64,000 nt of DNA from Desulfofustis limnaeus (GTDB lineage Bacteria; Desulfobacterota; Desulfobulbia; Desulfobulbales; Desulfocapsaceae). Shown here one piece after another: positions 29,504 through 64,000 of the stretch (position 1 is its first letter; the number at the start of each line of letters is the position of its first letter). The stretch lies in the NCBI RefSeq assembly GCF_023169885.1, contig NZ_AP025516.1, positions 2,428,501 through 2,492,500 of the forward strand, read 5' to 3'. Made by a program: the position numbers and the translations under genes. The notes beneath the pieces were generated by a model. That model was not told the origin of the DNA, made no database searches, and saw only the letters and a program-made list of their open reading frames with translations.

Positions 29504-29739
29504 CAAAGTTAAACCGATAAGACTAACAGCTCAGGAAGCAATGAGGCAACATGTCATCGGGGATTGGGAGATAGGTCTGCCGCCTAGCGGATGCTCCTGC
29601 AGACGCCTGTTGGCAATAACAGGCAGAGGGTTTGATCGGCTCGAAGGCGAGGAACCTCCTTGTGGACGGACCATGCTTCAGCCGATGGTCGAAATAATAA
29701 AAGGAGACCGTCACGCCGGACTTTCAACGCGGGAGAACT

Positions 29740-43037: not shown

Positions 43038-43073
43038 GGTTCCTGTCTCAACGGTAAAACGCGAGAAACAAAG

Positions 43074-43105
43074 GAACCGGACCGGTTTTCGTTCCGGCCC
43101 GGTTC
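43074..43105. other. Hairpin in the leader of the regulator gene
   Basis: GAACCGG-A-CCGG pairs with CCGG-C-CCGGTTC around an eight-base loop, with one mismatch. It lies 37 bases before the regulator start, with no T-run on the minus strand. Confidence 0.45.
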
Positions 43106-43166
43106 TGTCTATCCGGTTAGGTGATCTCGGCGATCTTGGTTCATTTAGCTGACTGATCGGCCCGAG

Positions 43167-43200
43167 CGGCGAAAGAGAAGGCGCTGCTCCCCTTTCGCCG
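43167..43200 (-). terminator. Possible terminator after pyruvate:ferredoxin oxidoreductase
   Basis: CGGCGAAAG and CTTTCGCCG arms are separated by 16 bases, beginning 13 bases after the oxidoreductase stop. The stem is GC-rich but there is no T-run, so it may only reduce read-through into the regulator gene. Confidence 0.45.
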
Positions 43201-43212
43201 TTGGTTCGATCC

Positions 43213-46767
<3,555 letters not shown>

Positions 46768-46918
46768 TCAGTCGCAATTCTTCGCACGGGCGGCAAAAAG
46801 AAAAGCGAACGCCTGGCGCGGCACCGCGCCGCGGCTCTTAGAGACCGACATCCGGTGTCCGTCGCCATAGGAACGATTCTGGTGTTTGTCCGGTACTTCA
46901 GCAGGATGCGCCGACTAC

Positions 46919-46968
46919 TGGACTGACCACGGCTCAAGAAATGTATATGACTTTGGCCGCTTTGGCAA
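46919..46968 (-). promoter_or_regulatory. Predicted sigma-70 promoter with FadR-type operator ahead of nifJ
   Basis: On the minus strand TTGCCA (46968-46963), 17 bases, then TACATT (46945-46940). TGGTCAGTCCA follows at 46929-46919, across the expected start of transcription. It differs at one base from the perfect TGGTNNNACCA seen twice elsewhere in the cluster. The leader to the start codon would be about 200 bases. Confidence 0.5.
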
Positions 46969-47060
46969 GCGCATACTCCTACGGAGTCGCGCTAAATTTT
47001 TGATCTTTGTCATCAGGACAGTGAATACCATCAGACGGTAGCGGCACCACATGGCCTCGC

Positions 47061-47089
47061 GCCAGCGGCACCCGATGGGTGCCGCTGGC
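47061..47089 (-). terminator. Strong hairpin after glcF
   Basis: A perfect 13-base stem (GCCAGCGGCACCC and complement) with a three-base loop starts 40 bases past the glcF stop. No T-run follows, so it may act with Rho or protect the 3' end. It separates the glc genes from the nifJ promoter. Confidence 0.6.
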
Positions 47090-47129
47090 GAGGAGAAAAG
47101 GCCGGGTTCGTCCGTCTGCACCGCTCTGG

Positions 47130-48461
47130 TCAGTGCAACGTGTCCTTGTACGCCAGCATTTCCGAGATATGAAAGACCTTGGTCTTCAACCCGTGCCGTT
47201 TGATCCCGTAGGCGAGCTGAATCATGCAGGCCGGACAGCTGGTCACCAAGATATCGGCCTCGGTTTTTTTCAGGTTGTTCATCTTCCGATCCAGGACCTT
47301 CTGCGACAGATCGTAATGGGTCAGCGCGTAGGAACCGGCACCGCCGCAGCACCAATCGGCCTCGGCCATCTCCCGGAAGGTGACGCCGGGAATCTTTTTC
47401 AGGACCTCCCGGGGTTCGTTCTTGATGTTCTGGCCGCGCACCGCATGGCAGGGATCGTGGTAAGTGACGATCACCGCCGCGGCGCCGGCTCCTTTCTTCT
47501 CGCCACCCTTCGGAGCGGCGGCATGGGCGTCGTGATAGCTGGAGACCGTTTCGTCACCGCTCCGCTGCCCCTGATCGTCGGCATAGAGGAACTCGACCAC
47601 GTCCTTGATCATCGGCAGTTCCTTGTTGGCGCGCTCGTAGTCGCGTCCGTCGTCCTTGAAGATCTTCGGATACTTCTTCAAGAACGAGGCACAACTCGAG
47701 CAATCGGTGACGATCACATCCACATCGAGCTTCTCGAAGGCGTCGAGATTCTTGCGGGCCAGCATCTTGGTGTTGTCCATGTCGCCGTAGGTATACGGCG
47801 GCAGACCGCAGCAGCAGTTGTCGATGACGGTCACCGATTTGCCTTTCTTTTTCAGAGCCTCGAAGGTCGCCTTGCCGGCCTGAATCTGGATCACGTCGAT
47901 ACCGCAGCCGACGAAATAGCCGATCTTCAGCTTGTCGCCCTGCCCCGGGTAGACACCGGGCTTGATGGTGCCCCGGAAGGAGCTCATGGGCAGCTTGTCG
48001 ACGATCCCTTCTGCCTTCGGCAGATCCCGACCGAAGATGCGCAGCAGACCGAGCGCATTGGCCACCTTGGAAGCGCCGGAGTTTTTCCCCAGGGCCACGG
48101 CCCGGGCGGCCACGTGCAACCGCTTCGGATAGGGCAGCAGATGCTCGAAGAGCAGCCGATGCGCCGGCTTTTTCCCGACCTTGTCGAGATATTCGGCGCG
48201 GGCGTTGAGCACCAGATCGGCGGTGGGCACCTTGCCGAAGCAATTGGTAGTGCAAGCGCCGCAGCCGAGGCAGGTGAACAACGGATCCTCCAACTCTTCA
48301 TCCCATTCCACTCGCTTTTCGATAATGCCGCGCAGCATTGCCAGTCGGCCGCGGGCGACGCCGCTCTCATGGCCGGTCGCCCGAAAAATCGGGCAGGCAA
48401 CGTGACAGAAACCGCATTTGTTGCATTTGGCAATGGCATCGTAACTCGTTAATACAGTCAT
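47130..48461 (-). CDS. glcF: Glycolate oxidase iron-sulfur subunit (GlcF-like)
   Basis: ATG 48461 behind TTAGGAATT gives 443 residues. Two ferredoxin-type [4Fe-4S] sites come first (CNKCGFCHVACP and CLGCGACTTNC). Two CCG (heterodisulfide-reductase-D-like) domains follow: one with NCCCGLPPYTYGD and DCSSC, the other with DPCHAVRGQ, WCCGGAG and SCPACM. The subunit takes electrons from the FAD subunits and passes them to a membrane or soluble carrier. It lies 67 bases downstream of the fused GlcDE gene. Other 2-hydroxyacid dehydrogenases (lactate) have the same subunit, so the substrate rests on context. Confidence 0.9.
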   Translation of the reverse strand: MTVLTSYDAIAKCNKCGFCHVACPIFRATGHESGVARGRLAMLRGIIEKRVEWDEELEDPLFTCLGCGACTTNCFGKVPTADLVLNARAEYLDKVGKKPAHRLLFEHLLPYPKRLHVAARAVALGKNSGASKVANALGLLRIFGRDLPKAEGIVDKLPMSSFRGTIKPGVYPGQGDKLKIGYFVGCGIDVIQIQAGKATFEALKKKGKSVTVIDNCCCGLPPYTYGDMDNTKMLARKNLDAFEKLDVDVIVTDCSSCASFLKKYPKIFKDDGRDYERANKELPMIKDVVEFLYADDQGQRSGDETVSSYHDAHAAAPKGGEKKGAGAAAVIVTYHDPCHAVRGQNIKNEPREVLKKIPGVTFREMAEADWCCGGAGSYALTHYDLSQKVLDRKMNNLKKTEADILVTSCPACMIQLAYGIKRHGLKTKVFHISEMLAYKDTLH

Positions 48462-48528
48462 AATTCCTAACCTCACCTTGTTGATAGTACGTCAATACAC
48501 AGCGTCACTCGTCTGCGATGCCGTTGCC

Positions 48529-51111
48529 TCACACCCGTCCGGGCAAAACCCCGGGGGCGAAGATCTTGTCGGGATCCAAAGCCTTCTTGATGGAATGGCT
48601 GAGTTTCCACTCTTTCCTGCCGGACCCGAAGACATCAGCGGTCTGCTTGAAAGACTCCGGCGCCTTGAGCAGCATGCCATGGCCCTGACAGCGGGTGACG
48701 AGCCGGTCGATCTTGACCCACTGGTCGGCGCTGAGGCTGGCAAAGCCGGCATGGATGCGCGCACCGGCGACGTCGATAACGATCTGCTCGGGCCGGGCGA
48801 TTTTCGCCACCTCCTCATACCATTCCTGGACCCGGGCAATGACCGTATCCGCCTGCATGACGAACGGTGCCTGCCAGACCGCGGCAAAACGATCAGCCAG
48901 CGCGCCCTCGAGCAGCGGGTAGTCGCTGGTACCCGCCGGCGTCAGGCCGCCCTGCTTCATCAGCTCGACACATCGCTGCACCTGGCTGGGCACCACGATC
49001 TGCAGCCCCTCGAAGCCGGTCATCACCTTCCAGGCGCCGCCCTCCGGCACCACCACGACAAACACCGGCAGCAGGTTGGAATTGACGATCTTGGCGGCAG
49101 TAGCGCAACACTGCGCCAGACTGCCGGTGGCGGTAGTCATCTGGCAGGCCTCGGGCCGGGTGGACACCTTCCAGGTGGTCTCGGTAATCAGGCCGAGGGT
49201 ACCCAGCGATCCGTTCATCAACCGGGTCATGTCATAGCCGGCCACGTTTTTCATGACTTTGCCGCCGGCACTGACCATGGCTCCGGCACTATCGATATAC
49301 TGCAGGCCGAGCAGCAGGTCGCGCGGTGCACCGTAGGCAAGCCGTTCCGGTCCGACGGCGGCCATGGCCACCACGCTGCCGATGGTCGACCCGGTCTGGA
49401 AATAGGGGGGACGCAGGGGCAGCCACTGGTTTTTTTCTCCCAACTTTTCCTGGAGAGCCGACAGGGCCAGACCGGCGCCGACGGTGATGAACTGGTTGTC
49501 GGAATCATACTCGATGATCTCGGTCATCTTCAGGCTGTCGATCTCCTGCACCGGCGCGGTGGTGAGATTGCCGACACCGTTGAAGGTGCCGACACCGGTA
49601 AAACGAACCGCCTTTTTCGCGGCCCGGGCCTGTTTTATCTGCTCCATGGCCTCGGCCACACCGGCCGCCGTGGCGCCACCGGGACGTTTGAGGATGGTCG
49701 GCTCGGACGGCGGCAGTCGTTTCTGGCCCTGCTTCGGCACCGGGATGATCTTGCCGGGGTTGAGCAGGTTGGCGGGGTCGAGCGCCAGTTTGACCTCCTG
49801 CTGAGTGTTGAGGTCGTTGCCGGAGAAGATCATATGCATGGCCTCCTGCTTCTCGTGGCCGACGCCATGTTCACCGGAAATCGTTCCACCCAGTTCCGCG
49901 CAGACCTCCATGATGTCCCACCCGGCCTTGTGCACCAGCTCCAGCTCCTCGGGTTTGCGCGAATCGAACATCAAAAGGGGATGAAGGTTGCCGTCGCCGG
50001 CATGGAAGACGTTGCCGACCGGACAGCCGTATTTCTCGGAAATCTGCTGAACCCGCTCCAGCGCCTCGGGCAACCGGGAGCGCAGAACGCAGCCGTCGTT
50101 GACCAGGTAGTTGGGCGACAGGTTACAGATGGCCCCGAAGGCCCCGCGCCGGCCTTTCCACAACAGGTCTCGTTCGGCCTGGTTCTTGGCCACCCGAACT
50201 TCACGGCACTGGGTGGCCATGCAGATCTCCTCGATCTTGGCGGCCTGCTCTTTGAGACCGGTGCTCATCCCTTCCACTTCGATGATCAGCACCGCCGCGG
50301 CATCCACCGGATAACCGCAGGAACCGCCCATCTCCACCGCCTTGATGATGGTGTTGTCCATCATTTCCAGGGTCAACGGCACGATGCCGGCGCGAATGAT
50401 CTCCGATACCGACCGGGCGGCATGCGGGATGGCGTCATAGATGGCAAGCATAGTGATAACCGATTCGGTCTTCGGCGTGATCCGCACCGTGATCTCGGTG
50501 GCCACACCGAGGCAGCCCTCACTGCCGACCACCAGGCCGCGCAGATCGTAACCAGGCGGGTCGAGAGCCGGGCCGGCCACATCGACGACATCGCCGTCGG
50601 TCATGACCATCTTCATGCCGAGGATATGGTTGGAGGTGACGCCGTATTTCAGGCAGCGCGGCCCACCGGAGTTCTCCCCGACGTTGCCGCCGATCGTCGA
50701 TACCTTCTGGCTGGCCGGATCAGGGGCGTAGAACATGCCGAGCGGCGCCACCGCCTCCTGCAACTCCAGGTTGGTGACGCCGGTCTGAACCACCGCATAA
50801 CGGCTCTCCGGGTGGATTTCCAGAATCTTGTCGAAGCGGGCCAGGGCCACCACCAGACCGGAATGGCTGATCGTCCCTCCGGAGAGGTTGGTGGCGAAAC
50901 CACGCGAAACGGAAGGCACGCCGGCCCGGTGCGCTTCCCGCAACACGCTCGACACCTCTTCCGTGGTGGCGGGAAAAACGACCAACCCCGGCATATCGGC
51001 AGGGACGACCGAGGCGTCGTAGGAATACAGCTCTCTATCGGCATGGGAATGTTTCACATACTCCTTGCCGACAATTTCTTCCATGGTGCGAATAAAACTT
51101 TCAGTAATCAT
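48529..51111 (-). CDS. Fused GlcD-GlcE FAD-linked 2-hydroxyacid (glycolate) oxidase
   Basis: The 860-residue protein (GGAGGAG before ATG) holds two flavoprotein modules. Residues 1-465 are a complete GlcD: an FAD-binding PCMH domain (MPGLVVFPATTEEVSSVLRE; STIGGNVGENSGGPRCLKYG) and an FAD-oxidase C-terminal domain with NVFHAGDGNLHPLL and ISGEHGVGHEKQEAM. Residues 480-860 resemble GlcE: a second PCMH domain (FTGVGTFNG; TIGSVVAMAA; GGKVMKNVAGYDMTRL) and a short C-terminal domain. In E. coli these are separate chains. With GlcF it would oxidise glycolate to glyoxylate on the cytoplasmic side of the membrane. Confidence 0.9.
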   Translation of the reverse strand: MITESFIRTMEEIVGKEYVKHSHADRELYSYDASVVPADMPGLVVFPATTEEVSSVLREAHRAGVPSVSRGFATNLSGGTISHSGLVVALARFDKILEIHPESRYAVVQTGVTNLELQEAVAPLGMFYAPDPASQKVSTIGGNVGENSGGPRCLKYGVTSNHILGMKMVMTDGDVVDVAGPALDPPGYDLRGLVVGSEGCLGVATEITVRITPKTESVITMLAIYDAIPHAARSVSEIIRAGIVPLTLEMMDNTIIKAVEMGGSCGYPVDAAAVLIIEVEGMSTGLKEQAAKIEEICMATQCREVRVAKNQAERDLLWKGRRGAFGAICNLSPNYLVNDGCVLRSRLPEALERVQQISEKYGCPVGNVFHAGDGNLHPLLMFDSRKPEELELVHKAGWDIMEVCAELGGTISGEHGVGHEKQEAMHMIFSGNDLNTQQEVKLALDPANLLNPGKIIPVPKQGQKRLPPSEPTILKRPGGATAAGVAEAMEQIKQARAAKKAVRFTGVGTFNGVGNLTTAPVQEIDSLKMTEIIEYDSDNQFITVGAGLALSALQEKLGEKNQWLPLRPPYFQTGSTIGSVVAMAAVGPERLAYGAPRDLLLGLQYIDSAGAMVSAGGKVMKNVAGYDMTRLMNGSLGTLGLITETTWKVSTRPEACQMTTATGSLAQCCATAAKIVNSNLLPVFVVVVPEGGAWKVMTGFEGLQIVVPSQVQRCVELMKQGGLTPAGTSDYPLLEGALADRFAAVWQAPFVMQADTVIARVQEWYEEVAKIARPEQIVIDVAGARIHAGFASLSADQWVKIDRLVTRCQGHGMLLKAPESFKQTADVFGSGRKEWKLSHSIKKALDPDKIFAPGVLPGRV

Positions 51112-51183
51112 GTGTCTCCTCCGACAGCCTCTCTGTAAAGCTTGTTCCGGTCTCCGCCGCCAAGGGCCGATTCCCGAAAAAAA

Positions 51184-51882
51184 TCAGGGCCTCTGCCAGC
51201 TCATGGCCAGCATCGCCCCGGTATCTCTCTGTTCTTCCCGTCCCTGTCGCTCCAGCTCTCGAGCACGGTGCGGATTTTCGTCTTTGGCAAAATGAACAGC
51301 CGTCCTGATCCGGACGGGACCGGGTACCAGACGGCTCATCTCTTCCGGCGAGCGAAAGGTCATGGCGGCAAACAACGAGTGTCCGGCCGCCGCCTTTTCT
51401 TTTCTGCGGTGCGCCCAGGGGCTGAGACTGTTCAACGTGGTGACCACGATGACGCCGCCGCGACGCGTCACCCGGGTCAACTCGTCGATCGCCTGCTGGG
51501 CGTCGGCGACGAATTCGAGAGCCGTCATCGAATAAACCCGATCGAAGGTCTCATCGCCAAAAGGGACCTGCAGCATGTCAGCGACGACGCCGCTGAAACG
51601 AAAATCGTGGGTCTTATGGGCGACCCGCTGCAACATGGGCAACGACAGATCCATGCCGACGATGGAAAGCGCTGCCGCTGCCTGAAAAATTTCTTTGGTA
51701 AAGATGCCGGTACCACACCCCACGTCCAGCAGAAGCTCGCCGTCACGCGGGGCGAGCAGGTCCACGAGCAGGTCGGTTTCACAGGCCTTGATGACCTTTC
51801 CGATGGGGGTAGCGAACCACTGGTCGTAGCGCTCCGGCCACTCATCGAACAACGCTTTGTCCTCTGATGCCCTGCCTGTCAT
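51184..51882 (-). CDS. Class I SAM-dependent methyltransferase
   Basis: The 232-residue protein has the motif I glycine loop LLDVGCGTGIFTKEI near residue 55, the acidic strand end IVGMDLS, and motif IV-like FDRVYSMTALEFV. It is of the Methyltransf_11/UbiE-like type. There is no obvious link to glycolate oxidation, but it lies on the same strand with short gaps (53 and 72 bases) inside the cluster. The substrate is unknown. Confidence 0.85.
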   Translation of the reverse strand: MTGRASEDKALFDEWPERYDQWFATPIGKVIKACETDLLVDLLAPRDGELLLDVGCGTGIFTKEIFQAAAALSIVGMDLSLPMLQRVAHKTHDFRFSGVVADMLQVPFGDETFDRVYSMTALEFVADAQQAIDELTRVTRRGGVIVVTTLNSLSPWAHRRKEKAAAGHSLFAAMTFRSPEEMSRLVPGPVRIRTAVHFAKDENPHRARELERQGREEQRDTGAMLAMSWQRP

Positions 51883-51935
51883 GGGCCGCTATCGCCTTGC
51901 ACGCCTCATAGGTATCTCACCCACACGTCCGGTTC

Positions 51936-52229
51936 TCACCTGTCGGTGACCGAAGCGACCTTACCGGCCAACGTGGCGTCCTTGTCGCGCCGGTCGTCGA
52001 CCTTCATCTCGATGATCAAACGGCGTGCCCCTTCTTCCAACTGCGCCTGGTGAATTTTCTCCACCAGGTCGAAGAGTTCCCTGAGGGTCGGCACCTCGAC
52101 GGAAGTGGACATGCCGCCGACTTGGTAGGTATACCCCGACTCCTCGATAATCTTGACGCCCTTTTTCACAAAACGCCCCATGCTGAGGCCTTCGCTGACC
52201 GGATATACCGACAATTGGGCCAGAATCAT
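51936..52229 (-). CDS. MTH1187-family (thiamine-binding, YqgV-like) protein
   Basis: Start ATG 52229, five bases behind GGGAGGG; 97 residues. The sequence MILAQLSVYPVSEGLSMGRF and YQVGGMSTSVEVPTLRELFD matches the MTH1187/YkoF-like small ferredoxin-fold family, some members of which bind thiamine. It lies 90 bases after the lyase gene. A role in supplying or sensing the TPP cofactor of the clustered oxidoreductase is possible but inferred. Confidence 0.82.
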   Translation of the reverse strand: MILAQLSVYPVSEGLSMGRFVKKGVKIIEESGYTYQVGGMSTSVEVPTLRELFDLVEKIHQAQLEEGARRLIIEMKVDDRRDKDATLAGKVASVTDR

Positions 52230-52319
52230 CACCACCCTCCCCTCTCGTACAACGGACTCCGGGATTGGCGGCCGAACGCAGCCGCCAATCCCGTTCTTTC
52301 TGGTTTCGGCAGGGCCGAA

Positions 52320-53219
52320 CTACTTCTTGGCACGCTCCTCAACGGCACGAATCTCAGCCATGGTGCGCAAGATCTGCATGGCGTTCTCGTATACCGGGGT
52401 GTCGACCATCTTGCCGAGGTAGGTGACGGCGGCGGACCCTTTGGCGATGCCCTCTTCCTCGAAGACCTTCTTGACGCCCTCGGCCCACTCGACACTGGCG
52501 GCAGACGGGGTGTAGATCTCGTGTGAGGCTTCGATCTGGCTCGGGTGGATCAGCATGCGGCCTTCGTAACCCATCTGGTGGCCTTCCATGGTGCTCTTCT
52601 TGAACGCTTCCTCGTCCTTGAAGGCGACGAACGGGCAGTCGATGGCGACGCAACCGGCGGCCCGGGCGGCAACCGCGGTATGGTAGCGGGCGTACAGCTG
52701 TTCAACGCCCTCGGAGGTCAACTCCACGCGCATATCCTTGCAATAGTCGACGGCGCCGAAGATCAGCGAGTTGACGCGCTTGCTGGCGGTGGCCGAGGCA
52801 TAGGCGTTCATGACGCCCTTGGCGGTCTCGATAAGCAGTTGGATGGCCACGGTGCCGACTTTCATGCCGCGACGCTGCTCCAGTTCCTCGAGTTTCCAGT
52901 CGAGGCGCTTGACGTTCTCCGGGCCGCCGCACTTGGCCAGGCAAACGCCGTCGAGGCCGGGATGAACGATGGCTTCGAGGTCATCGTTGGTCATCTCGGT
53001 CTCCCAGTTGTTGATCCGGACATAGAGATAGGGAGCGGCCTGATTGGCCCGTTCGGTCTGCAGGTATTTCTGGATCATCTCGCGGCCCTTGGCTTTTTCG
53101 GCCGGGGGTACCGAGTCTTCCAGGTCAAGGGTGACGATGTCGGAACCGATGGTCGGGGCCTTGCCCACCATCTTCTCGTTGTTGCTCGGTACGTAGAATA
53201 CTGATCTCATTACAGCCAT
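52320..53219 (-). CDS. HpcH/HpaI-CitE family lyase, probably malyl-CoA lyase / malate synthase-type
   Basis: AGGAGGAACAACC precedes the ATG; 299 residues. TIM-barrel motifs of the CitE/malyl-CoA lyase family are visible: DIVTLDLEDSVPPAEKAKGR (Mg-site and substrate Asp/Glu), YVRINNWET, VQLL-like IQLLIETAKGVMNA with the catalytic-site Glu, FGAVDYCKDM (Mg-binding Asp) and IHPSQIEASHEIYTPS. The reaction is glyoxylate + acetyl-CoA to or from L-malyl-CoA. Citramalyl-CoA or citryl substrates cannot be excluded. The ligase genes 18 bases upstream and the glycolate oxidase downstream favour malyl-CoA. Confidence 0.85.
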   Translation of the reverse strand: MAVMRSVFYVPSNNEKMVGKAPTIGSDIVTLDLEDSVPPAEKAKGREMIQKYLQTERANQAAPYLYVRINNWETEMTNDDLEAIVHPGLDGVCLAKCGGPENVKRLDWKLEELEQRRGMKVGTVAIQLLIETAKGVMNAYASATASKRVNSLIFGAVDYCKDMRVELTSEGVEQLYARYHTAVAARAAGCVAIDCPFVAFKDEEAFKKSTMEGHQMGYEGRMLIHPSQIEASHEIYTPSAASVEWAEGVKKVFEEEGIAKGSAAVTYLGKMVDTPVYENAMQILRTMAEIRAVEERAKK

Positions 53220-53237
53220 GGTTGTTCCTCCTGTTTC

Positions 53238-54134
53238 TTATAATCCGGTAAGTTCTTTGATCTTCGGTGCGATATCCTCAGGGCTGTCGACCACGTAGGC
53301 GCCGGCCTCGGTCAGCGCCTTCATCTTGCCCTGGGCGGTTCCGCGCCCTTTTTCCACGATGCTGCTGGCGTGCGAGAAACGCATGCCTTCCGGCGCCCAG
53401 GCGCCGGCGATAAAGACGACAAGCGGCTTGGTGAACTGCTTGTTGGCGACCACCTCGGCGGCCTCTTCTTCCATGGTGCCGCCGATTTCGCCGAAGATGG
53501 CGACGGCCTTGGTCTGTTCGTCCTTCTCAAACTTCTTCAGCACATCAGCCATGGTCAGGCCGAGTACCGGTTCGGTGCCGATATGCATGGCGGTGCTGAT
53601 GCCGAGCCCGGCGACCTTCAGGGCCCAGGGTACAGTGCCGGACTGGCCGCCGCTGCGGGAGATGACCCCGATGGGTCCGGGCTGGAACAAAGTGCCGGCC
53701 CAGTCGACCGAACCGCCGAGCCAACCGATGACTGCCTTGCCGGGACTGATCAGGCCGAGGCTGCCGGGTCCGAGCAGCTCGACGCCGTTTTTCCGGGCAT
53801 AGCTGACCATGTCGATGACATCGTGGATCGGAATCCGCTCCACCGGTGCGCTGACAAACTTGATGCCGGCGTCGATGGCCTCGTAGACCGCTCCCTTCAG
53901 GACCGGACCGGGAATGAAGGTACAGGAGGCATCGATCGGGCCATGGTTGCGGATGGCCTCCCTGACGGTGTCGTAGACCGGGATGCCGTGCACCTCGGTG
54001 CCGCCCTTGCCGGGAGTTACGCCGGCCACCACCTTGGTGCCGTAATCCTTCATGTACTTGGTCCGCAGGGAGCCCTCGCGCCCCGTGATACCTTGAATAA
54101 CTACCGTGGTGTTTTCATCCATTATAATAGACAT
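53238..54134 (-). CDS. Acyl-CoA ligase alpha subunit (succinate/malate-CoA ligase type, SucD-like)
   Basis: The 298-residue CoA-binding subunit has VIQGITGREGSLRTKYMKDY, GVISRSGGQSGTVPWALKVA and AIFGEIGGTMEEEAAEV. The active-site phosphohistidine region is RFSHASSIVEKGRGTAQ. Length and motifs match SucD and the alpha chain of malate-CoA ligase (MtkB). It is paired with the beta subunit upstream, but a 94-residue ferredoxin-like gene lies between them. In this context the likely reaction is malyl-CoA + ADP + Pi to malate + CoA + ATP; succinyl-CoA is the alternative. Confidence 0.88.
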   Translation of the reverse strand: MSIIMDENTTVVIQGITGREGSLRTKYMKDYGTKVVAGVTPGKGGTEVHGIPVYDTVREAIRNHGPIDASCTFIPGPVLKGAVYEAIDAGIKFVSAPVERIPIHDVIDMVSYARKNGVELLGPGSLGLISPGKAVIGWLGGSVDWAGTLFQPGPIGVISRSGGQSGTVPWALKVAGLGISTAMHIGTEPVLGLTMADVLKKFEKDEQTKAVAIFGEIGGTMEEEAAEVVANKQFTKPLVVFIAGAWAPEGMRFSHASSIVEKGRGTAQGKMKALTEAGAYVVDSPEDIAPKIKELTGL

Positions 54135-54148
54135 AGATCATCCCCTGC

Positions 54149-54433
54149 TCATGCGGTTCCGTGCTTTGCTCTGTATTCGTCCAACCCCTCGATCGGTACC
54201 TCGATGGTGATGGCCGAATTCCCCCTAAACCAGCATTCATACTCACAGGCCAGGCACTCGGTGCCTTTGCGGGCCAGGTCTTCGGGACTGTCCACGACAG
54301 CCGGTTTACCGTCCTTGAGAACCAGGATACCGCGGCTGTATTTCTTGCAGGCCTCGACACAGGCGTGCGTCGTGCAACCCTCGCACTTTGCCTCATCGAT
54401 GATGATTTTGATCGTTCGTTCCGAAAATTCCAT
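54149..54433 (-). CDS. Small ferredoxin-like Cys-rich protein between ligase subunits
   Basis: The 94-residue protein has seven Cys in two groups: KCEGCTTHACVEACKK near residues 16-30 and ECLACEYECWF near 59-67. The spacing suggests one [4Fe-4S] cluster, though it is not the standard 2x[4Fe-4S] ferredoxin pattern. It begins 11 bases after the beta subunit and ends 14 bases before the alpha subunit, so all three must be co-translated. SucCD-type ligases do not need Fe-S proteins, so its role (redox switch, assembly factor or electron carrier for the oxidases) is unknown. Confidence 0.8.
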   Translation of the reverse strand: MEFSERTIKIIIDEAKCEGCTTHACVEACKKYSRGILVLKDGKPAVVDSPEDLARKGTECLACEYECWFRGNSAITIEVPIEGLDEYRAKHGTA

Positions 54434-54444
54434 CTATCTCTCCC

Positions 54445-55698
54445 TCAGGCTGCCGCCTTTTCTTTGCGATATTCTTCTACCAGAGCCTTGACCCGACCAC
54501 CGATGAACTTGGCATCGTAAACGTGTTCGCGATCGTAGATCTCCACCCGTTCGAAACCGGCCAATCCCTCCTTGAGGATCTGCTGCGACTCTTTCTCCTT
54601 GTTGCCGCAGAGCAGCAACACCACCGGAAAACCGGGTCGCTTCGGCAGCTCCTCACGCAGGGCCTTGACGATGCCGTGGGCGTGGTGCCACTGTTCCTGG
54701 TTGGCCATCATGAAACCGGACAGGAAGTACCCCTCGATCCCCGGCTGCGACATGATCAGCTTGACCGCTCGATAGACCTTGGAAGCGGTCGGGTTGCCGC
54801 TGGTATCGGCATAGTCGGCAACCTTCAGGCCGACCTTGTTCAGCGCATCCATGCCGAGCATGGCGGCGCCGCCGCCGATACCGTGGTAACCGACATAACC
54901 GCCTTTTCTCAGCTCTTCCGGCGAGGCCATCTCGGCCAGGTAGCTGGTACCGCGGAAATCGTTGGCCTCGAACGACCAGCCCATCAGCTCGAAATCGGTC
55001 GGCTCCTTGAGGAATTCGCGGCCGATCTTGATGCCGAATTCGGGGTGGCGGAACAGCGCCTGATCATCGGCTTCCATGCGGCAGTCGGCAGCCAGCACCT
55101 TGCCTTCCTTGGTGAGCACCAACGGGTTGATCTCCAGGGTGCGGCAATCGTTCTTGCGAAAGGCGTTGTATAGTTTGAGGATGATATCGGCCAACGGCTT
55201 CAAGGCAGCGCCTTTGATACCCATGGACACCACCATGTCGAGGGTGTCATGGATCATCAAGCCCTTGATGACGTCGACGTTGAGGGTGGCGATGCGGTCT
55301 TGCGGGACCGACTCGATATCCATACCCCCTTCCGGGCTGAACATCAGCACCGGGCCGCGCACGTCCTGCGCGGAGTTGATGATCAATCCGGCATAGAACT
55401 CCTGAGCGATGTCGAGCTGCTCTTCAACCAAGACCTGTTTGACCAAAAGGCCTTTGATGGTCATGCCGAGAATCTCACCGGCGACCTTCTGTACCTCCTC
55501 CGGGGTCGATGCCAGTTTGACGCCGCCGGCCTTGCCCCGACCGCCGGCCAGGACCTGCGCTTTGACCACCACCGGTTTGCCGATCTCCCGCGCTGCCTCG
55601 GCAGCCTCTTCCGGGGTCTTGGCGACTTTCCCTACAGGGGTCGGGATACCCGCCTTTTTAAAATAATCTTTGCCCTGATATTCGAGAAACTTTGCCAT
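54445..55698 (-). CDS. Acyl-CoA ligase beta subunit, ATP-grasp (SucC/MtkA-like)
   Basis: The 417-residue protein (GGAGGAAAG before ATG) has an ATP-grasp domain: EIGKPVVVKAQVLAGGRGKA, YAGLIINSAQDVRGPVLMFS and LEINPLVLTKEGKVLAADCR. The Gly-rich GGYVGYHGIGGGAAMLGMDA and DTSGNPTASKVYR are near the subunit interface. It is about 30 residues longer than E. coli SucC. It is first gene of the minus-strand operon, behind a predicted promoter with a FadR-type operator. The substrate is most likely malate, judged by the lyase gene in the operon. Confidence 0.88.
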   Translation of the reverse strand: MAKFLEYQGKDYFKKAGIPTPVGKVAKTPEEAAEAAREIGKPVVVKAQVLAGGRGKAGGVKLASTPEEVQKVAGEILGMTIKGLLVKQVLVEEQLDIAQEFYAGLIINSAQDVRGPVLMFSPEGGMDIESVPQDRIATLNVDVIKGLMIHDTLDMVVSMGIKGAALKPLADIILKLYNAFRKNDCRTLEINPLVLTKEGKVLAADCRMEADDQALFRHPEFGIKIGREFLKEPTDFELMGWSFEANDFRGTSYLAEMASPEELRKGGYVGYHGIGGGAAMLGMDALNKVGLKVADYADTSGNPTASKVYRAVKLIMSQPGIEGYFLSGFMMANQEQWHHAHGIVKALREELPKRPGFPVVLLLCGNKEKESQQILKEGLAGFERVEIYDREHVYDAKFIGGRVKALVEEYRKEKAAA

Positions 55699-55797
55699 CT
55701 TTCCTCCGTCTCCATGGTAGATTTACCTCTTCCCGGTCTGCCGACCATCGTGCCGCCCGCAGGGCCGGGTCCGTCAGTCGAAAAATTGCCATTTTCA

Positions 55798-55843
55798 CTG
55801 GTAAGACCAGATAAATTTTGTCATTTCGCCGCGCGATTGTCAA
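55798..55843 (-). promoter_or_regulatory. Predicted promoter and FadR-type operator of the acyl-CoA ligase operon
   Basis: On the minus strand: TTGACA (55843-55838), 17 bases, CAAAAT (55820-55815), then CTGGTCTTACCAG at 55810-55798. The palindrome is perfect (6-base arms around one central base) and sits over the expected transcription start, a position suited to repression. It is 100 bases before the ligase start codon. Confidence 0.65.
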
Positions 55844-56341
55844 GAACTTTTCCCGATTGCGGCAAAGTTTTCCAAGCCCACCGCACGACCCAACAAAAAC
55901 GCCCTCTCACGAGGTGTCATTTGTTCTTTTTTGACCATCTTGCACATGCCGCACAGATTCGATAACACGCGCAACATCACTCTCCATGCCCAGGGTTAGC
56001 GCGGCACATCACGGTGTGTTCCCGGTTTTTTGCCGTGAGGCGCAGTGTCAAGAGACGCTCTGCTAAGCCTTGGAGATGGACATTATATCTTTTATTTCCT
56101 ATTAGTTAGGTCAAACAAAAGAAATCTGACCGAGGCGCCGGAAGATATTATTTTTTATCGATAATAGATAATAACCGCGAACCCATGACCGTCGATACTT
56201 TTTTTCGCTCGTCATTTTTGATCGGACAGAGATCGGAAGGATTCCGGTTTTCTCTGCAGAATCAAGCTGAACCAGACACACGAAGGATACGTGCCGGCCA
56301 CCGGCAGACACCCCTCGATCAGGCTGATTCCGGAAAAGTAT

Positions 56342-56394
56342 TTGACTAATAATTCGAAACATTATATAAAAAAGTATTCTGGTTTGACCAGAAT
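56342..56394 (+). promoter_or_regulatory. Predicted promoter and FadR-type operator of the TRAP transporter operon
   Basis: TTGACT (56342-56347), 17 bases, TATAAA (56365-56370), then the palindrome ATTCTGGT-TTG-ACCAGAAT at 56376-56394. The 8-base arms are perfect. The expected start site falls at its left edge, as in the ligase promoter. The core TGGTTTGACCA fits the TGGTNNNACCA pattern known for FadR- and PdhR-type regulators. Confidence 0.68.
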
Positions 56395-56706
56395 ATGCGT
56401 TTCGGCAGCGAAACGAACAGCAATCTTATTGAAACGAATCGAAATTTCGTTTCATCGGCGGGTCCGGCTCACGGGAACACGCACCTGGAACCACCCACGG
56501 AACAGAGTGATACTGTTTTATTGATATACCGAATCGGAATTTTTTATGCTGGGTTTTCGACCGAGGCGTGCCATACTAAAGGCACTTTTCGGACGACGAC
56601 AGCTGCCGTCAGATGTCATGTCCGTAGTTTCATCAACCATTCCGCCTGAGAGACCAGCGCCCTGGTGGAATGTGTCACACCAACCCTGATCAACAAGGAG
56701 TGAACC

Positions 56707-57852
56707 ATGCAGGAACAAGGACAGAAGAAAGACGAAAAAGTAACCACCGCCCCTGACACCGGTCGTCGGAAGTTCCTCAAGACCGCTGCCGCCGCCGGTG
56801 CCGCCGTCGCCGCCAGCAGCGCTGTCGGCCCGTTCATCAGGACCTCCAGCGCCGCCACCACGTGGAAAATGCAGACCGTATGGGACGCCGGTACAAGCGG
56901 CTTCACCCTCTTTGAGAATTGGTGCAACAGCATGGCCGAAAAAACCGGCGGCGAACTGGTGCTCAAGGCCTTCCCGGCCAAATCCATTGCCGCTGACAAC
57001 AACGCCCTGTTCGAGGCGGTGCAGAGCGGCGTGCTCCAAGGCATGCAACCCTTCACCATTTACTGGGCCGGCAAAATCGTCGCCTCGGTCTTCCTCTCCT
57101 CCTACCCGATGGGTCCGGATCAGCCCGGCCAGTGGGACATCATGTTCGACGCCCTGGGCATGAAGGAACTGGCCCGAGAGATTTATGCCAAGCATGGCCT
57201 GTTCTACGTCAGTCATGTCCACCATGACGCCAACATCATCCACTCCAAAAAACCGGTTACCAAGCTGGAAGACTTCCAGGGTCTGAAAATCAGAGCACCG
57301 GGCGGACTGATCGCCGAGGCCTTCCAGGCCATTGGCGCCAGCACCGTTTCCCTGCCCGGCTCCGACATCTTCCCGGCACTGGAGAAAGGGACCATTGACG
57401 CTGCCGACTACGTGGGACCGGCCGTCAACTGGGACCTCGGATTTGCTCAAGTGGCAAAATACATCCTTTTCGGACCTCCAGGCGTCATGTCACTGTACCA
57501 GCCGGTCGACCTGATGGATATCACCGTCAACCTGGGTGCCTGGAAACGCCTCTCGCCCAAACTGCAGGAAACCTTCGAGCAGGAAGTACGCAATTACTCC
57601 TACGAGCACTTCATCGGTATTCAGAAGGCCAACGTCGAGGCGCTGAAAAAGTTCAAGGAAGCAGGCTGCGAAGTCAGCCGCTTGCCGCAGGAAGACGCCA
57701 TGAAGTGGCGGAAGGTGGTTGTACCGTTGTGGTTCAGCTGGGCCAAGAAAGACCCCGACGCAGCCAGGGTCTTCAAGCTGCAGCTCGACTACATGATGAA
57801 CGACATGATGGGCTACGTGACGCCGGAAGACGTCCAGGGTCAAACGCTGTAA
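56707..57852 (+). CDS. dctP: TRAP transporter solute-binding protein (DctP, mannitol/chloroaromatic-type subfamily)
   Basis: The 381-residue precursor has a twin-arginine-like signal (TGRRKFLKTAAAAG, to about residue 49), so it is probably folded before export. The mature part has the TRAP SBP motifs: VSLPGSDIFPALEKGTIDAA with a conserved Arg shortly before it (GLKIRAPGG), and WDLGFAQVAKYILFGPPG. This subfamily includes binders of 2-oxo acids such as TakP. AAGGAG lies before the ATG. With the clustered oxidase it probably binds glycolate or a related hydroxy/oxo acid. Confidence 0.92.
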   Translation: MQEQGQKKDEKVTTAPDTGRRKFLKTAAAAGAAVAASSAVGPFIRTSSAATTWKMQTVWDAGTSGFTLFENWCNSMAEKTGGELVLKAFPAKSIAADNNALFEAVQSGVLQGMQPFTIYWAGKIVASVFLSSYPMGPDQPGQWDIMFDALGMKELAREIYAKHGLFYVSHVHHDANIIHSKKPVTKLEDFQGLKIRAPGGLIAEAFQAIGASTVSLPGSDIFPALEKGTIDAADYVGPAVNWDLGFAQVAKYILFGPPGVMSLYQPVDLMDITVNLGAWKRLSPKLQETFEQEVRNYSYEHFIGIQKANVEALKKFKEAGCEVSRLPQEDAMKWRKVVVPLWFSWAKKDPDAARVFKLQLDYMMNDMMGYVTPEDVQGQTL

Positions 57853-57879: not shown

Positions 57880-57912
57880 GACAAAACGGGGGCCGCAGGC
57901 CTCCGTTTTGTC
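57880..57912 (+). terminator. Attenuating hairpin between dctP and dctQ
   Basis: GACAAAACGG and CCGTTTTGTC arms with inner GGCC pairing lie 28 bases after the dctP stop. There is no T-run. Hairpins at this place commonly keep binding-protein mRNA in excess over the permease mRNA. Confidence 0.6.
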
Positions 57913-57940
57913 GTTGACCTCCGCATGGGAGTCAGTACGT

Positions 57941-58600
57941 ATGGATCAACAGCAAATTTACGATTTCGGCTTTGTCTTGCCGCACTGGTTTTACTGGTCC
58001 TGGTTGGCGCTGTCGCCGATCGTGTTCATAATCTGGAGCTATGCTCTGGAAAAAAAGAAAAACATCAAACCGCCGATGCGTCCCGCCGATGAGCCGAACA
58101 ACATCATAACCCGCACCATTGACTGGATCTGCGAGCATACCGGCCAGATGGTCGGATTCTGGACGGTCAATGCCGTTTGTTTCTACGCTTTCGAGGTCAT
58201 CTCGCGCTACATTTTCAACAAACCGACCATCTGGGTACACGAGGCATCCTATCTCCTGTTCGGCATGCAATACCTGATTGCCGGAGCGTACGCCTACCTC
58301 TATGGGTCTCACGTCGCCGTCGACATCGTCTTCAACAAACTGCCCCCTCGCGGTCGCCACGGCATGGATATCTTCACCTCGGTCTTTTCCTTTATCTTCT
58401 TCATCGCGTTGCTGGGGACCTCCTACAACTTCTTCATAAATTCGTTCGGCATGCGCGAACGTACCGTGGAGACCTGGCAGATACAGTACTACCCGGTCAA
58501 GTTTATCATGATCGTCGGTGCCGTGCTTATCATCCTGGCTACGATCTCCAAGCTGTATAAGGATATCAAACAATTCAACCGGCTCGGCCGAGAAGCGTAA
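57941..58600 (+). CDS. dctQ: TRAP transporter small membrane subunit
   Basis: ATG 57941 gives 219 residues with about five hydrophobic segments. Four are the usual DctQ helices (GFWTVNAVCFYAFEVISRYI onwards, with VHEASYLLFGMQYLIAGAYA). One extra N-terminal helix (FYWSWLALSPIVFIIWSY) precedes them. It overlaps nothing and is followed by dctM after 12 bases. It forms the membrane complex with DctM for Na+-driven import. Confidence 0.9.
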   Translation: MDQQQIYDFGFVLPHWFYWSWLALSPIVFIIWSYALEKKKNIKPPMRPADEPNNIITRTIDWICEHTGQMVGFWTVNAVCFYAFEVISRYIFNKPTIWVHEASYLLFGMQYLIAGAYAYLYGSHVAVDIVFNKLPPRGRHGMDIFTSVFSFIFFIALLGTSYNFFINSFGMRERTVETWQIQYYPVKFIMIVGAVLIILATISKLYKDIKQFNRLGREA

Positions 58601-58612
58601 CAGGAGGCAGGC

Positions 58613-60148
58613 ATGAGTACCACTACCAAAACCGCATCGACCGGCCGATCATCCAGTCTTTTCTGGAACTTCCTTGTCTATGGCCTGACGCTGGCCCTGG
58701 CCGGCGCCGTGCTCGTCGAGGTGATCAATGTTTTCTTCTACGATCCCTACGGAGATGAGTATTTTCTCTTCCGCACCGCCGGCATGTTCTCCGGCGTCGA
58801 CATCTCGACCCTGACCTGGTGGATGTTCGGCTCACTGGCCGTATTGCTGATGGCCGGTCTGCCGCTGGCCTTCGTCACCGGCGGGCTCGGCATTGTATTC
58901 GTCTACACCATCGGCGACCAGGCCATGCTGAATCTCCTGCCCAGCCGGATCTTCCCGATGATGACCAACTCCGACCTGTCAGCCATCCCGCTGTTCATCT
59001 TCATGGCGGCCATGCTCGAGAAGGCCGGCATCATCGAGGAGATGTTCGCCGTGGCCTACAAGTGGATGGGCGGTCTGCGCGGCGGTCTGGCGGCCGCCAC
59101 CATTGCCGCCTCGACAATCCTGGCCGCCATGGTCGGCGTCATTGGCGCCGCCGTCGTCACCATGGGTATTCTCGCACTCCCGGCGATGTTGTCGCGTAAC
59201 TACGACGAGAAGATCGCCATCGGCTCGGTCATGGCCGGCGGTACGCTCGGCATCCTCATCCCGCCGTCGATCCTGGCCATCCTCTATGCCGTCGTCGCCC
59301 AGCAGTCGGTCGGCGAGTTGTACATGGGCGCCATCCTGCCGGGTCTGCTCCTGTCCGGCATGTACATCGCCTACGTCCTGATCCGCTCCTACATGAACAA
59401 GGATCTCTGCCCGGCCATGCCGAAAGAGGAACTGATCGGCTGGATCGAAAAGATCAAGTTGCTGAAGGGATTGATCGCCCCGATCTTCCTGGTCTTCCTC
59501 GTTCTCGGCCTGCTCTTCGGCGGTATCGCCACGCCGGTCGAGGCCGCCGGTCTCGGTTCCTTTGGCGCCATCATCGTCGCCATCATTCAACGCAAATTTT
59601 CTCTGATAGTCCTCAAAGAAGCCTCGATGACGACCCTGCGCGCCGCCACCATGGTCCTCTGGATCATGTTCGGCGCCTCCTTGTTCGTCGGCTTCTACAT
59701 CCTGCAGGGTGGCCAGGCCTTCATCACCGAGACCATGCTCGGCCTCGGTCTCGGGCCCTACGGCATCCTCTTCTTGATGATGTTTCTGCTGATCGTCCTC
59801 GGCATGTTCCTGGACTGGGTCGGCATCCTGCTGCTGGCTGTGCCGATTTTCGTGCCGATCATCAAGAGTCTGACCTTCCCCGGGCTGTTCGGTCTGCCCG
59901 GCCCGGCTCCGGAAGATGTGGCCCTGTGGTTCGGTATCCTCTATATCGTCAACATGCAGATGTCGTTTCTCAGCCCGCCGTTCGGCTACGCCCTGTTCTA
60001 CATCAAGGGTGTCTGCCCACCGCATATCAAGATGTCAACCATCTTCAAGGCCTCTTTCGTCTTTCTGGCCATGCAGGCCATCGGGCTGTTGCTTTGTGTC
60101 GTTTTCCCCGCACTCACCACCTACTTCCCCAACCTGATCTACGGGTAG
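58613..60148 (+). CDS. dctM: TRAP transporter large membrane subunit
   Basis: The 511-residue protein (AGGAGGCAGGC before ATG) is very hydrophobic, with around 13 helices. It shows DctM signature regions such as TIAASTILAAMVGVIGAAVV, GGTLGILIPPSILAILYAVV and LGMFLDWVGILLLAVPIFVP. It forms the transport channel with DctQ. A strong hairpin 66 bases downstream probably ends the TRAP transcript. Confidence 0.94.
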   Translation: MSTTTKTASTGRSSSLFWNFLVYGLTLALAGAVLVEVINVFFYDPYGDEYFLFRTAGMFSGVDISTLTWWMFGSLAVLLMAGLPLAFVTGGLGIVFVYTIGDQAMLNLLPSRIFPMMTNSDLSAIPLFIFMAAMLEKAGIIEEMFAVAYKWMGGLRGGLAAATIAASTILAAMVGVIGAAVVTMGILALPAMLSRNYDEKIAIGSVMAGGTLGILIPPSILAILYAVVAQQSVGELYMGAILPGLLLSGMYIAYVLIRSYMNKDLCPAMPKEELIGWIEKIKLLKGLIAPIFLVFLVLGLLFGGIATPVEAAGLGSFGAIIVAIIQRKFSLIVLKEASMTTLRAATMVLWIMFGASLFVGFYILQGGQAFITETMLGLGLGPYGILFLMMFLLIVLGMFLDWVGILLLAVPIFVPIIKSLTFPGLFGLPGPAPEDVALWFGILYIVNMQMSFLSPPFGYALFYIKGVCPPHIKMSTIFKASFVFLAMQAIGLLLCVVFPALTTYFPNLIYG

Positions 60149-62113: not shown

Positions 62114-64000
62114 TTATCCCGCCGAGGCCGCAACCCGCTCCGGCACCGCCGCATAGGCCATGGCCAGCAGCTTGATCGGCGGCAGGGAGTGACGGCTGGT
62201 GCCCTGGTAGATCTGCATCCCGCAGGCCCCGCACCCGGTCACCACCTGGTCGACACGGGAGGTGTTGATCTCGTCGAAGAGGCGCTGGCCGATCTTCATG
62301 GACAGCTCGTAATTCTTGCTCTTCAAGCCATACGTACCGCCCATGCCGCAACATTTGTCGGAATAGGTCTCCACCTCCACACCGGGAATCAACTCCATGA
62401 GCTGCACCGGCTCCTTGACCACCCCGAGGGTGCGCAGATGGCAGGGGGCATGGTAGCCGACCTTCATGGTGAGCCGACCGAACTCGGTATTCAGTTCCCC
62501 CCGACGGTGGAGATCCATGAGGAATTTGTGGATGTCCACGCAAGTGGCTGCCACCCGCCGGGCCTCGTCGGTCTCGACAATGCGCGGATACTCGTCCTTG
62601 ACCGCCAGCGCACAGCTCGGCTCGCTGAAGATGATCGGCAGACCGCGTTCGGCATAGGGCAGCAACGCTTTGATGTTGGCATGGATGTCGTCGAGGATGT
62701 GATCCTGCCCGCCGGCACTGATACGGGCGATGCCGCAACACTTCAGCTCCGGCAGCAGCACCCGGAAACCGTTCCGCTCGAGCACCTCGATAACCGCCAT
62801 CCCCTCGTTCTCCGGGTCGTTGTAATTGCCGAAACAACCGAGGAAGAACACCACCTCCTTGCTGCTCTGCAGCTGGGCGTGCTTTTTCATCATCTTGCGC
62901 AGGGTCTCGTGCTGGAAGGGCGGCAGCTGCCGCTTGGCCTCCATGCCGAGCACCTTTTCCAGACCCCAGCGCACCGGCGCCAGCGAGGTGGCGAAGTTGG
63001 CCACCGGGGCCAGCAGGCTTCCCTGCTTACAGAGCAGGCTGGTGTCGGTCAAGACCCGGTTGGTCAACCCCTCGCCGCGGTGACGCACATACTCGGTGCG
63101 GGCGGCCATGGCCAGCCACGGCACGTCAACCCCGGATGGGCATTCGGTGAGGCACCGCTTGCAATTGATGCAGGAATCCATGACTTCCTTGAACTCCGGC
63201 TCATCGAGAATGGCCGGGTCGAGATTACCGGAAGTCAGTTCCCGCAGCAATGTGATCTTGCCCCGCCCCTTGGTCCATTCCTGCAGACTCGATGAGGCAA
63301 TGGGACAATAGGATCGGCATTTGGCGCAACCGGAACAATTCTCGATCTGCTCTTGATAGACCAGCTTGTCGAACGAGGTGCCGGTGCTGACCAGGGCGAA
63401 ATCAGGACCGAATTTCAGGTCGTGGCCAAGCGCGTTCTCCTCGCCGGAGATGATGACCCCCGGATTCATCAACCCGGCCGGATCGAAGGCGGCCTTGATC
63501 TCCTTCATCGCCTCGTAGAGGTGCGGATACTGGCGCTTGACATAGTAACTGCGCAGCCGGCCGTCGGCATGTTCACCGCTGACTGTCCCCTTGAGGCTGA
63601 GCACCAGGTCGCAGACCGCATCGGAGAGTGCCAGCATGGTCCGCACATCTTCTGGCTGGCGCGTATCCAGGATGGCCATGGTATGCAGATTGCCGTCACC
63701 GGCATGGCCGTAGATGGCGGCCTTCACCTGGAACTGATCGAACAGCCGGCGCAGACCGGCGATATATTCGGGCAACCGCGAGACGTGTACGGCGGCGTCC
63801 TCGATAAAGGCGATCGGCCGTTTCGGCCCTTTCATCCGGTTGAGGATCGGCCCGGAGATGCCGCGGACCTTGGTGAAGGTCTTCATATCCTCGGCGTTGC
63901 GGGCCTGCAGGATGCGTACCGCCAGTTGTTTGTCCTCCATCAGCCGTTTTTTGACGCCGGCGAATTTTTCCTGCAGCGCCTCATCGCTATCCTCTTGGAA
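62114..64000 (-). CDS. FAD-linked oxidase with C-terminal Fe-S/CCG domains (D-lactate/2-hydroxyacid dehydrogenase type), 5' end outside window
   Basis: The frame stays open to position 64000, so the start lies further right; 628 residues are visible. First comes the end of a GlcD-like flavin domain (AIYGHAGDGNLHTMAIL, VSGEHADGRLRSYYV). Then two [4Fe-4S] sites (CSGCAKCRSYCP, CINCKRCLTECP) and two CCG domains (KCCGIARISAGGQ, KCCGMGGTYGL, GCGACGMQIYQG). This D-GlcF-type fusion in one chain is typical of respiratory D-lactate dehydrogenase and relatives. It could oxidise D-lactate or be a second glycolate oxidase. It is convergent with the TauE gene. Confidence 0.9.
   Translation of the reverse strand, partial: FQEDSDEALQEKFAGVKKRLMEDKQLAVRILQARNAEDMKTFTKVRGISGPILNRMKGPKRPIAFIEDAAVHVSRLPEYIAGLRRLFDQFQVKAAIYGHAGDGNLHTMAILDTRQPEDVRTMLALSDAVCDLVLSLKGTVSGEHADGRLRSYYVKRQYPHLYEAMKEIKAAFDPAGLMNPGVIISGEENALGHDLKFGPDFALVSTGTSFDKLVYQEQIENCSGCAKCRSYCPIASSSLQEWTKGRGKITLLRELTSGNLDPAILDEPEFKEVMDSCINCKRCLTECPSGVDVPWLAMAARTEYVRHRGEGLTNRVLTDTSLLCKQGSLLAPVANFATSLAPVRWGLEKVLGMEAKRQLPPFQHETLRKMMKKHAQLQSSKEVVFFLGCFGNYNDPENEGMAVIEVLERNGFRVLLPELKCCGIARISAGGQDHILDDIHANIKALLPYAERGLPIIFSEPSCALAVKDEYPRIVETDEARRVAATCVDIHKFLMDLHRRGELNTEFGRLTMKVGYHAPCHLRTLGVVKEPVQLMELIPGVEVETYSDKCCGMGGTYGLKSKNYELSMKIGQRLFDEINTSRVDQVVTGCGACGMQIYQGTSRHSLPPIKLLAMAYAAVPERVAASAG

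Follow-up and report, generated by a model that had tools for sequence, protein, structure and literature searches.

Matched palindromes at the divergent promoters of a candidate glycolate locus in Desulfofustis limnaeus and their proposed FadR-type regulator

Two gene runs of Desulfofustis limnaeus point away from each other across a gap of 1008 bp, and each is preceded by a promoter-like pair with a matching palindrome just downstream of it. Which protein reads these palindromes, what would it do there, and how far does its reach extend? We address these questions starting from a window of 64,000 nucleotides (contig NZ_AP025516.1, positions 2,428,501 to 2,492,500), and we use the relatives of this bacterium to decide which parts of the gap are kept.

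Matched palindromes in the gap between two operons

The features that we discuss are collected in Table 1. The minus strand run includes, in order, the SucC/SucD-like, CitE-like, methyltransferase, GlcDE fusion, GlcF-like, NifJ and GntR/FCD regulator genes. It may be co-transcribed, with gaps of 0.2-0.4 kb. From their context, we take the SucCD-like pair as a candidate malate-CoA ligase and the CitE-like protein as a candidate malyl-CoA lyase. The SucC-like protein (MtkA) is 91% identical in Desulfofustis glycolicus DSM 9705. Some smaller features of the region are a small minus strand ORF (54149-54433) in the sucC-sucD gap, a gap of about 0.31 kb in many relatives, and a 12-bp hairpin (43074-43105, minus strand) between nifJ and the regulator gene, where one relative (L179) has by eye a different hairpin at the same position. 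No promoter-like pair was found between nifJ and the regulator at 43000-43240. On the other side of the window, a GlcD-GlcF fusion (62114-64000) runs past the window end, and beyond it (L285) there are genes that by eye look like an aminotransferase and a tripartite tricarboxylate transporter.

Table 1. Features of the divergent locus, with positions counted from the first letter of the window.
Feature	Positions	Strand	Basis or remark
GntR/FCD regulator, proposed binder	42315-43037	-	PF00392 70.5 bits, PF07729 89.1 bits
nifJ, pyruvate:ferredoxin oxidoreductase	43213-46737	-	TIGR02176 1906 bits, cut-off 911
Putative weak operator before nifJ, TGGTCAGTCCA (as read on - strand)	46919-46929	-	conservation
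Promoter-like pair before nifJ, TTGCCA-17-TACATT, 9 of 12	46940-46968	-	promoter scan
GlcF-like iron-sulfur subunit	47130-48476	-	below every family cut-off
GlcD-GlcE fusion, glycolate oxidase	48529-51111	-	TIGR00387 569.2 bits, cut-off 567.9
SAM-dependent methyltransferase-like, same gene run	51184-51882	-	PF08241 79.3 bits; retained in syntenic loci
CitE-like lyase, candidate malyl-CoA lyase	52320-53219	-	below NCBIfam cut-offs; role inferred from context
SucD-like acid-CoA ligase alpha, candidate malate-CoA ligase	53238-54134	-	below NCBIfam cut-offs; role inferred
SucC-like acid-CoA ligase beta (MtkA), candidate malate-CoA ligase	54445-55698	-	below NCBIfam cut-offs
Proposed operator A, CTGGTAAGACCAG (- strand: CTGGTCTTACCAG)	55798-55810	-	covers predicted start point of mtk/glc genes
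Promoter A, TTGACA-17-CAAAAT, extended -10 TG	55815-55843	-	promoter scan
Promoter B, TTGACT-17-TATAAA	56342-56370	+	read directly from sequence
Proposed operator B, core TCTGGTTTGACCAGA (56378-56392) within perfect 21-bp palindrome	56375-56395	+	other-strand form TCTGGTCAAACCAG
TRAP transporter DctP with Tat signal	56707-57852	+	profile matches
TRAP transporter DctQ and DctM	57908-60148	+	profile matches

Sites A and B overlap the start points that spacing predicts for two divergent sigma-70-type promoters. The initial annotation had described matching palindromes just downstream of two divergent -35/-10 pairs with 17-base spacing, and its sequences and coordinates are borne out, so that the presence of matched palindromes on both promoters is confirmed; the overlap with the predicted start points is also what the repressor geometry it proposed would need. 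In the gap, the promoter scan finds four promoter-like pairs compared with 0.9 in shuffled sequences. The scan requires a T at position 6 of the -10 element, so promoter B is missing from its list; one further pair in the gap covers site B on the opposite strand. The operator pattern of the FadR subfamily, GTM-N0-1-KAC, is fitted by A (GTCTTAC), while B (GTCAAAC) matches it on one half only. Between A and B lies another palindrome, TTATCGATAA (56155-56164), found once in the window against 0.03 expected, present also in three relatives (L041, L043 and L044) and almost so in L045. A related CGATAAATATTTATCG-like repeat precedes nifJ in several relatives, and these repeats possibly point to a second regulator.

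Counting the bare motif across the genome does not discriminate, and proves nothing either way. In the 4,232,141 bases of the genome (one contig), there are 69 exact occurrences of TGGTNNNACCA compared with 145 of a reversed control, and 11 of CTGGTNNNACCAG compared with 18. The initial annotation had named a random genome-wide frequency of the motif as evidence against it and, taken literally, the absence of enrichment in the own genome is such a result. In the window, there are four exact occurrences of TGGTNNNACCA, and 18 with up to one mismatch where 19.05 are expected. The 13-mer counts across 17 genomes are not clearly higher with the regulator (5-14 in eight genomes) than without it (2-11 in nine); the sites read individually for this comparison were a selection drawn from genomes with the regulator, with few from G044 or G002. 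Two 13-mers in one 1008-bp gap have a Poisson probability of about 3e-6 at the genome's own rate, a post hoc figure for a gap chosen because of them. A crude gene calling places 38 of the 69 own-genome sites outside called genes, and nothing rests on this count since the caller missed the glyoxylate carboligase gene. The case for operators thus depends on conservation and not on motif counts.

Conservation of the sites and their proposed dispersed targets

We aligned seven upstream regions, those of the window and of six relatives with MtkA 84-91% identical (L041-L046). Sites A, as CTGGTCTTACCAG, and B, as TCTGGTCAAACCAG, are present in 7/7 regions that are otherwise diverged, and each keeps its own fixed spacer triplet in all of them. 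Without any alignment, the 8-mers common to the seven regions (26, both strands counted) all come from A or B, while 100 base shuffles of the regions leave no shared 8-mers. At promoter A, TTGACA and ATGACA are invariant in the seven regions, and the distance from TTGACA to the TGGT of the site is always 27-28 bases.

At larger distances, the site scan of mtk loci covered 53 of 68 loci. Among 14 further loci with MtkA 75-81% identical, nine have an exact TGGTNNNACCA at most 300 bp from the start codon, and five have no exact site within 300 bp. In four distant relatives (L048, L050, L053 and L056), the gene for a regulator 50-57% identical points away from sucC and TGGTCTTACCA lies in the gap. 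A site is also found 0.3-0.6 kb before dctP in L050, L053 and L058. In five loci of Desulfosporosinus type (L067, L068, L078, L080 and L107), exact sites about 1.1-1.4 kb upstream of the mtk-like gene are inside a stretch that matches GlcDE, and we did not count them. Two actinobacterial records have a TTTGGTAGGACCATA site 178 bp before a sucC-like gene (L065:9823 and L082:9823) and a regulator 36-37% identical about 4 kb away. This pairing suggests an association across phyla that may be either old or convergent.

The family search included 60 genomes, own included, and found a regulator orthologue in 11 of them. Besides the own genome, these are seven with nearly full-length proteins 66-89% identical (G005, G050, G025, G011, G044, G036 and G017), one at 66% (G056), and two with high-identity fragments (G002 and G008). 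MtkA has a match in eight genomes, own included, all of which have the regulator orthologue (as fragments in G002 and G008). The three genomes with the regulator and no MtkA match (G036, G050 and G056) have contigs that end nearby.

The initial annotation had taken the regulon to be local. The same site is also found elsewhere on the chromosome, before malic enzyme and malate dehydrogenase and, in some genomes, before glyoxylate carboligase and a second TRAP system. The own genome has two sites before malic enzyme and two before malate dehydrogenase. A site precedes malic enzyme in 9/9 genomes with the regulator (own included) and in 0/7 without it, and malate dehydrogenase in 8/9 with the regulator and in 0/21 readable genomes without it, the exception being G056 with its 66% identical regulator. 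The genes for malic enzyme and malate dehydrogenase occur in both of the groups of genomes compared. For malate dehydrogenase, matched in 37 of the 60 genomes, 30 upstream regions were read (9 with and 21 without the regulator); G002 and G020 offered too little upstream sequence to read (47 and 52 bp), and G010, G013, G015, G028 and G046 were left out. The corresponding p-values (9e-5 and 1.5e-6) overstate the case because of shared ancestry and because some negatives are incomplete (down to 63%). When all 256 four-base half-sites are tried on the nine malic enzyme and seven malate dehydrogenase positives, TGGT alone reaches nine and seven with zero in the negatives, and amongst spacers of 0 to 8 bases only 3 bases works with it. 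Most malate dehydrogenase sites fit the FadR-subfamily pattern (GTAATAC), and some malic enzyme sites match it on one half only.

Glyoxylate carboligase (NF008431 827 bits, cut-off 791) has matches in five of the 60 genomes, all of them with the regulator, and the site precedes it in three (G000, G005 and G056) and not in G044 or G002. For the second TRAP system, the site is present in G000, G005, G002 and G044 and absent in G025, G011 and the regulator-negative G051; its upstream region is unreadable in G036 and G050, and an exact site is missing from four copies that are more distant (58-61% identical; L299, L300, L301 and L303). Among other occurrences, the own genome has a 13-mer site ahead of the gene for a B12-dependent ribonucleotide reductase (L031); G000 and G005 have a site between dihydroorotate-dehydrogenase-like and transporter-like genes (L138:1501 and L254:1502); and in G000 and G011 a site precedes the gene for a cobalto/magnesium-chelatase-like ATPase (L114:1501 and L248:1502).

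The nifJ gene has a putative weak operator, with moderate support that comes from conservation of the same deviation. The variant TGGTC[AT]GTCCAG is kept in six of nine family genomes, with one half retained in G025; it is absent in G002, in G017 and in 3/3 distant loci. A second copy of the variant is found in the window at 29663. From the window alone, where the one-mismatch count is at chance level, the site was given no weight. For this third, weaker site, the initial annotation had the sequence and coordinates right, but its placement is not quite that of the other two, as it lies 10 bases past its promoter-like pair, slightly further than at A and B.

The regulator, its proposed action and the competing readings

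The protein encoded at 42315-43037 has an N-terminal GntR winged helix-turn-helix (PF00392, cut-off 27 bits) and a C-terminal FCD domain (PF07729, cut-off 24.3 bits), which agrees with the FadR-type family that the initial annotation assigned to the linked regulator. The metal-dependent FCD sensors of small acids have Asp and His ligands in this domain; residues D150, H154, H197 and H219 (numbered without Met1) are invariant in 12/12 aligned sequences, and would be compatible with a metal-assisted small-acid pocket. The AlphaFold model (mean pLDDT 84.5, pTM 0.71) has the winged helix-turn-helix and seven C-terminal helices; an all-helical C-terminal domain of seven or six helices is described for the FadR subfamily in the excerpt of PMC4494728. 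The PDB fold matches to the model are GntR-family proteins, and include DhdR (Z 20.5), a PdhR domain (19.3), Cgl2915 (18.1), FadR (17.4) and a Streptococcus agalactiae GntR protein. The protein misses the NCBIfam cut-offs of GlcC (115.4/301 bits), PdhR (143.4/330), LldR (146.9/311), NanR (159.6/260) and FadR (52.5/189). In the window, there is no site before the regulator gene itself.

We propose, with a probability of about 0.8, that A and B are operators of this protein, acting as a repressor that would occlude both promoters, control a dispersed glycolate regulon and be relieved by a C2 acid. The sites, their conservation, their co-occurrence with the regulator and the linkage are observed; from them we infer binding, its sign and the effector. 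The 42315-43037 protein is favoured as the binder because of its linkage and its co-occurrence with the sites, and the idea of a FadR-type regulator at the palindromes, already in the initial annotation, is supported. A regulator dimer would bind the palindrome, with core CTGGTnWnACCAG, over the transcription start, and would block RNA polymerase separately at each divergent promoter. Acting also at distant promoters, the same regulator would cover uptake by the TRAP transporter and the whole cycle. In this cycle, glycolate would be oxidized to glyoxylate (Glc), converted to malyl-CoA (CitE-like) and then to malate with a gain of ATP (Mtk-like), and malate would go to pyruvate or oxaloacetate (malic enzyme, malate dehydrogenase) and on to acetyl-CoA (NifJ), with glyoxylate carboligase as a side branch. 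The effector would be a C2 acid, with glycolate or glyoxylate the likeliest, and its binding to the FCD domain would release the DNA. The simplest mechanism would be promoter occlusion that a C2 acid relieves.

The alternative that survives best keeps the same regulator and makes it an activator or a dual regulator instead of a simple repressor, and we consider it unlikely though a serious contender. GlcC of Escherichia coli, a glycolate regulator of the same subfamily, is an activator, and the malate dehydrogenase sites lie at -150 and -304, counted from the first codon matched, where there is no mapped promoter by which to judge their position. Against it, both A and B cover a predicted start point, a position in which a dimer would block, and the stretch from TTGACA to TGGT at A hardly varies in length.

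A second alternative assigns the sites to one of the FadR-type paralogues encoded elsewhere in this genome (L001, L004 or L008). The genome has ten FCD proteins, of which four, the window regulator included, share by eye an LP-x-E-x-E-L type of winged helix-turn-helix; the DNA-binding domains of the three paralogues contain a similar stretch, and about 2 kb separate L004 from malic enzyme. However, L004, the paralogue profiled across the genomes, has close orthologues (at least 60% identical) in only three of the nine genomes with malic enzyme sites, and it is the orthologue of the window regulator that adjoins a site in the four distant relatives described above. L008 (L012:1501) and a gene that by eye is proline-dehydrogenase-like (L011:1501) have sites with a different flank, AATGGTnAAACCATT, which suggests a separate regulon. 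We regard a paralogue as an improbable binder. That the palindromes are terminators, RNA elements or chance occurrences is very improbable: a terminator-like scan lists both A and B (two found, 1.2 in shuffles), but what is conserved is the TGGT-N3-ACCA core with its near flank and not a longer stem or T run, no Rfam family matches at gathering threshold within 46700-56800, and chance does not yield 7/7 identity in otherwise diverged regions.

Returning to the repressor at A and B, a more specific version, which we put forward tentatively and would not expect to hold in all its parts, has one C2-acid-sensing FadR-type repressor serve a dispersed regulon through graded operators. There would be near-perfect palindromes at the dedicated genes (transporter and Mtk-like), double sites at the malic enzyme and malate dehydrogenase shared with central metabolism, and an imperfect conserved operator at nifJ, whose transcript may carry the regulator and so close a feedback loop.

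Relation to known systems and significance

Divergons of the FadR subfamily with one independent site per operon have already been described in the excerpt of Suvorova et al. 2015 (PMC4494728). As with A and B, two palindromic sites with a GT/AC core share a single intergenic region in these divergons, one close to each operon. In contrast to the divergons of that excerpt, the regulator gene of the window lies outside the divergon, and yet beside the mtk-like operon in four distant relatives, and proposed targets are also far away in the genome. The same excerpt names GlcC of E. coli as a glycolate regulator of the GntR/FadR subfamily. The window regulator is like GlcC in its subfamily and in the glycolate oxidase genes nearby, and unlike it in its low NCBIfam GlcC score and in the pathway proposed here, via malyl-CoA, malic enzyme and NifJ. 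PdhR, LldR (Cgl2915) and DhdR are among the solved folds closest to the predicted model, and the top NCBIfam matches include PdhR and LldR despite the missed cut-offs, but the target genes differ from those of all three. LurR of Desulfovibrio, in the excerpt of PMC6456213, likewise controls an operon for central acid oxidation in sulfate reducers; it differs in being a two-component response regulator, an activator for lactate use and not a GntR protein.

According to the excerpt of PMC6313629, the malyl-CoA pathway is the one that D. glycolicus, among others, uses, and anaerobic glycolate conversion has been described for only a few isolates. Among the matches listed in the open-licence literature, we found no regulator of the malyl-CoA glycolate pathway; the divergon layout is known, and its coverage of this pathway is not described among those matches. 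The operators tie scattered malic enzyme, malate dehydrogenase and glyoxylate carboligase genes to the glycolate pathway. They provide a concrete and cheap test set, and sulfate reducers that use glycolate might be recognised from their genomes by these sites.
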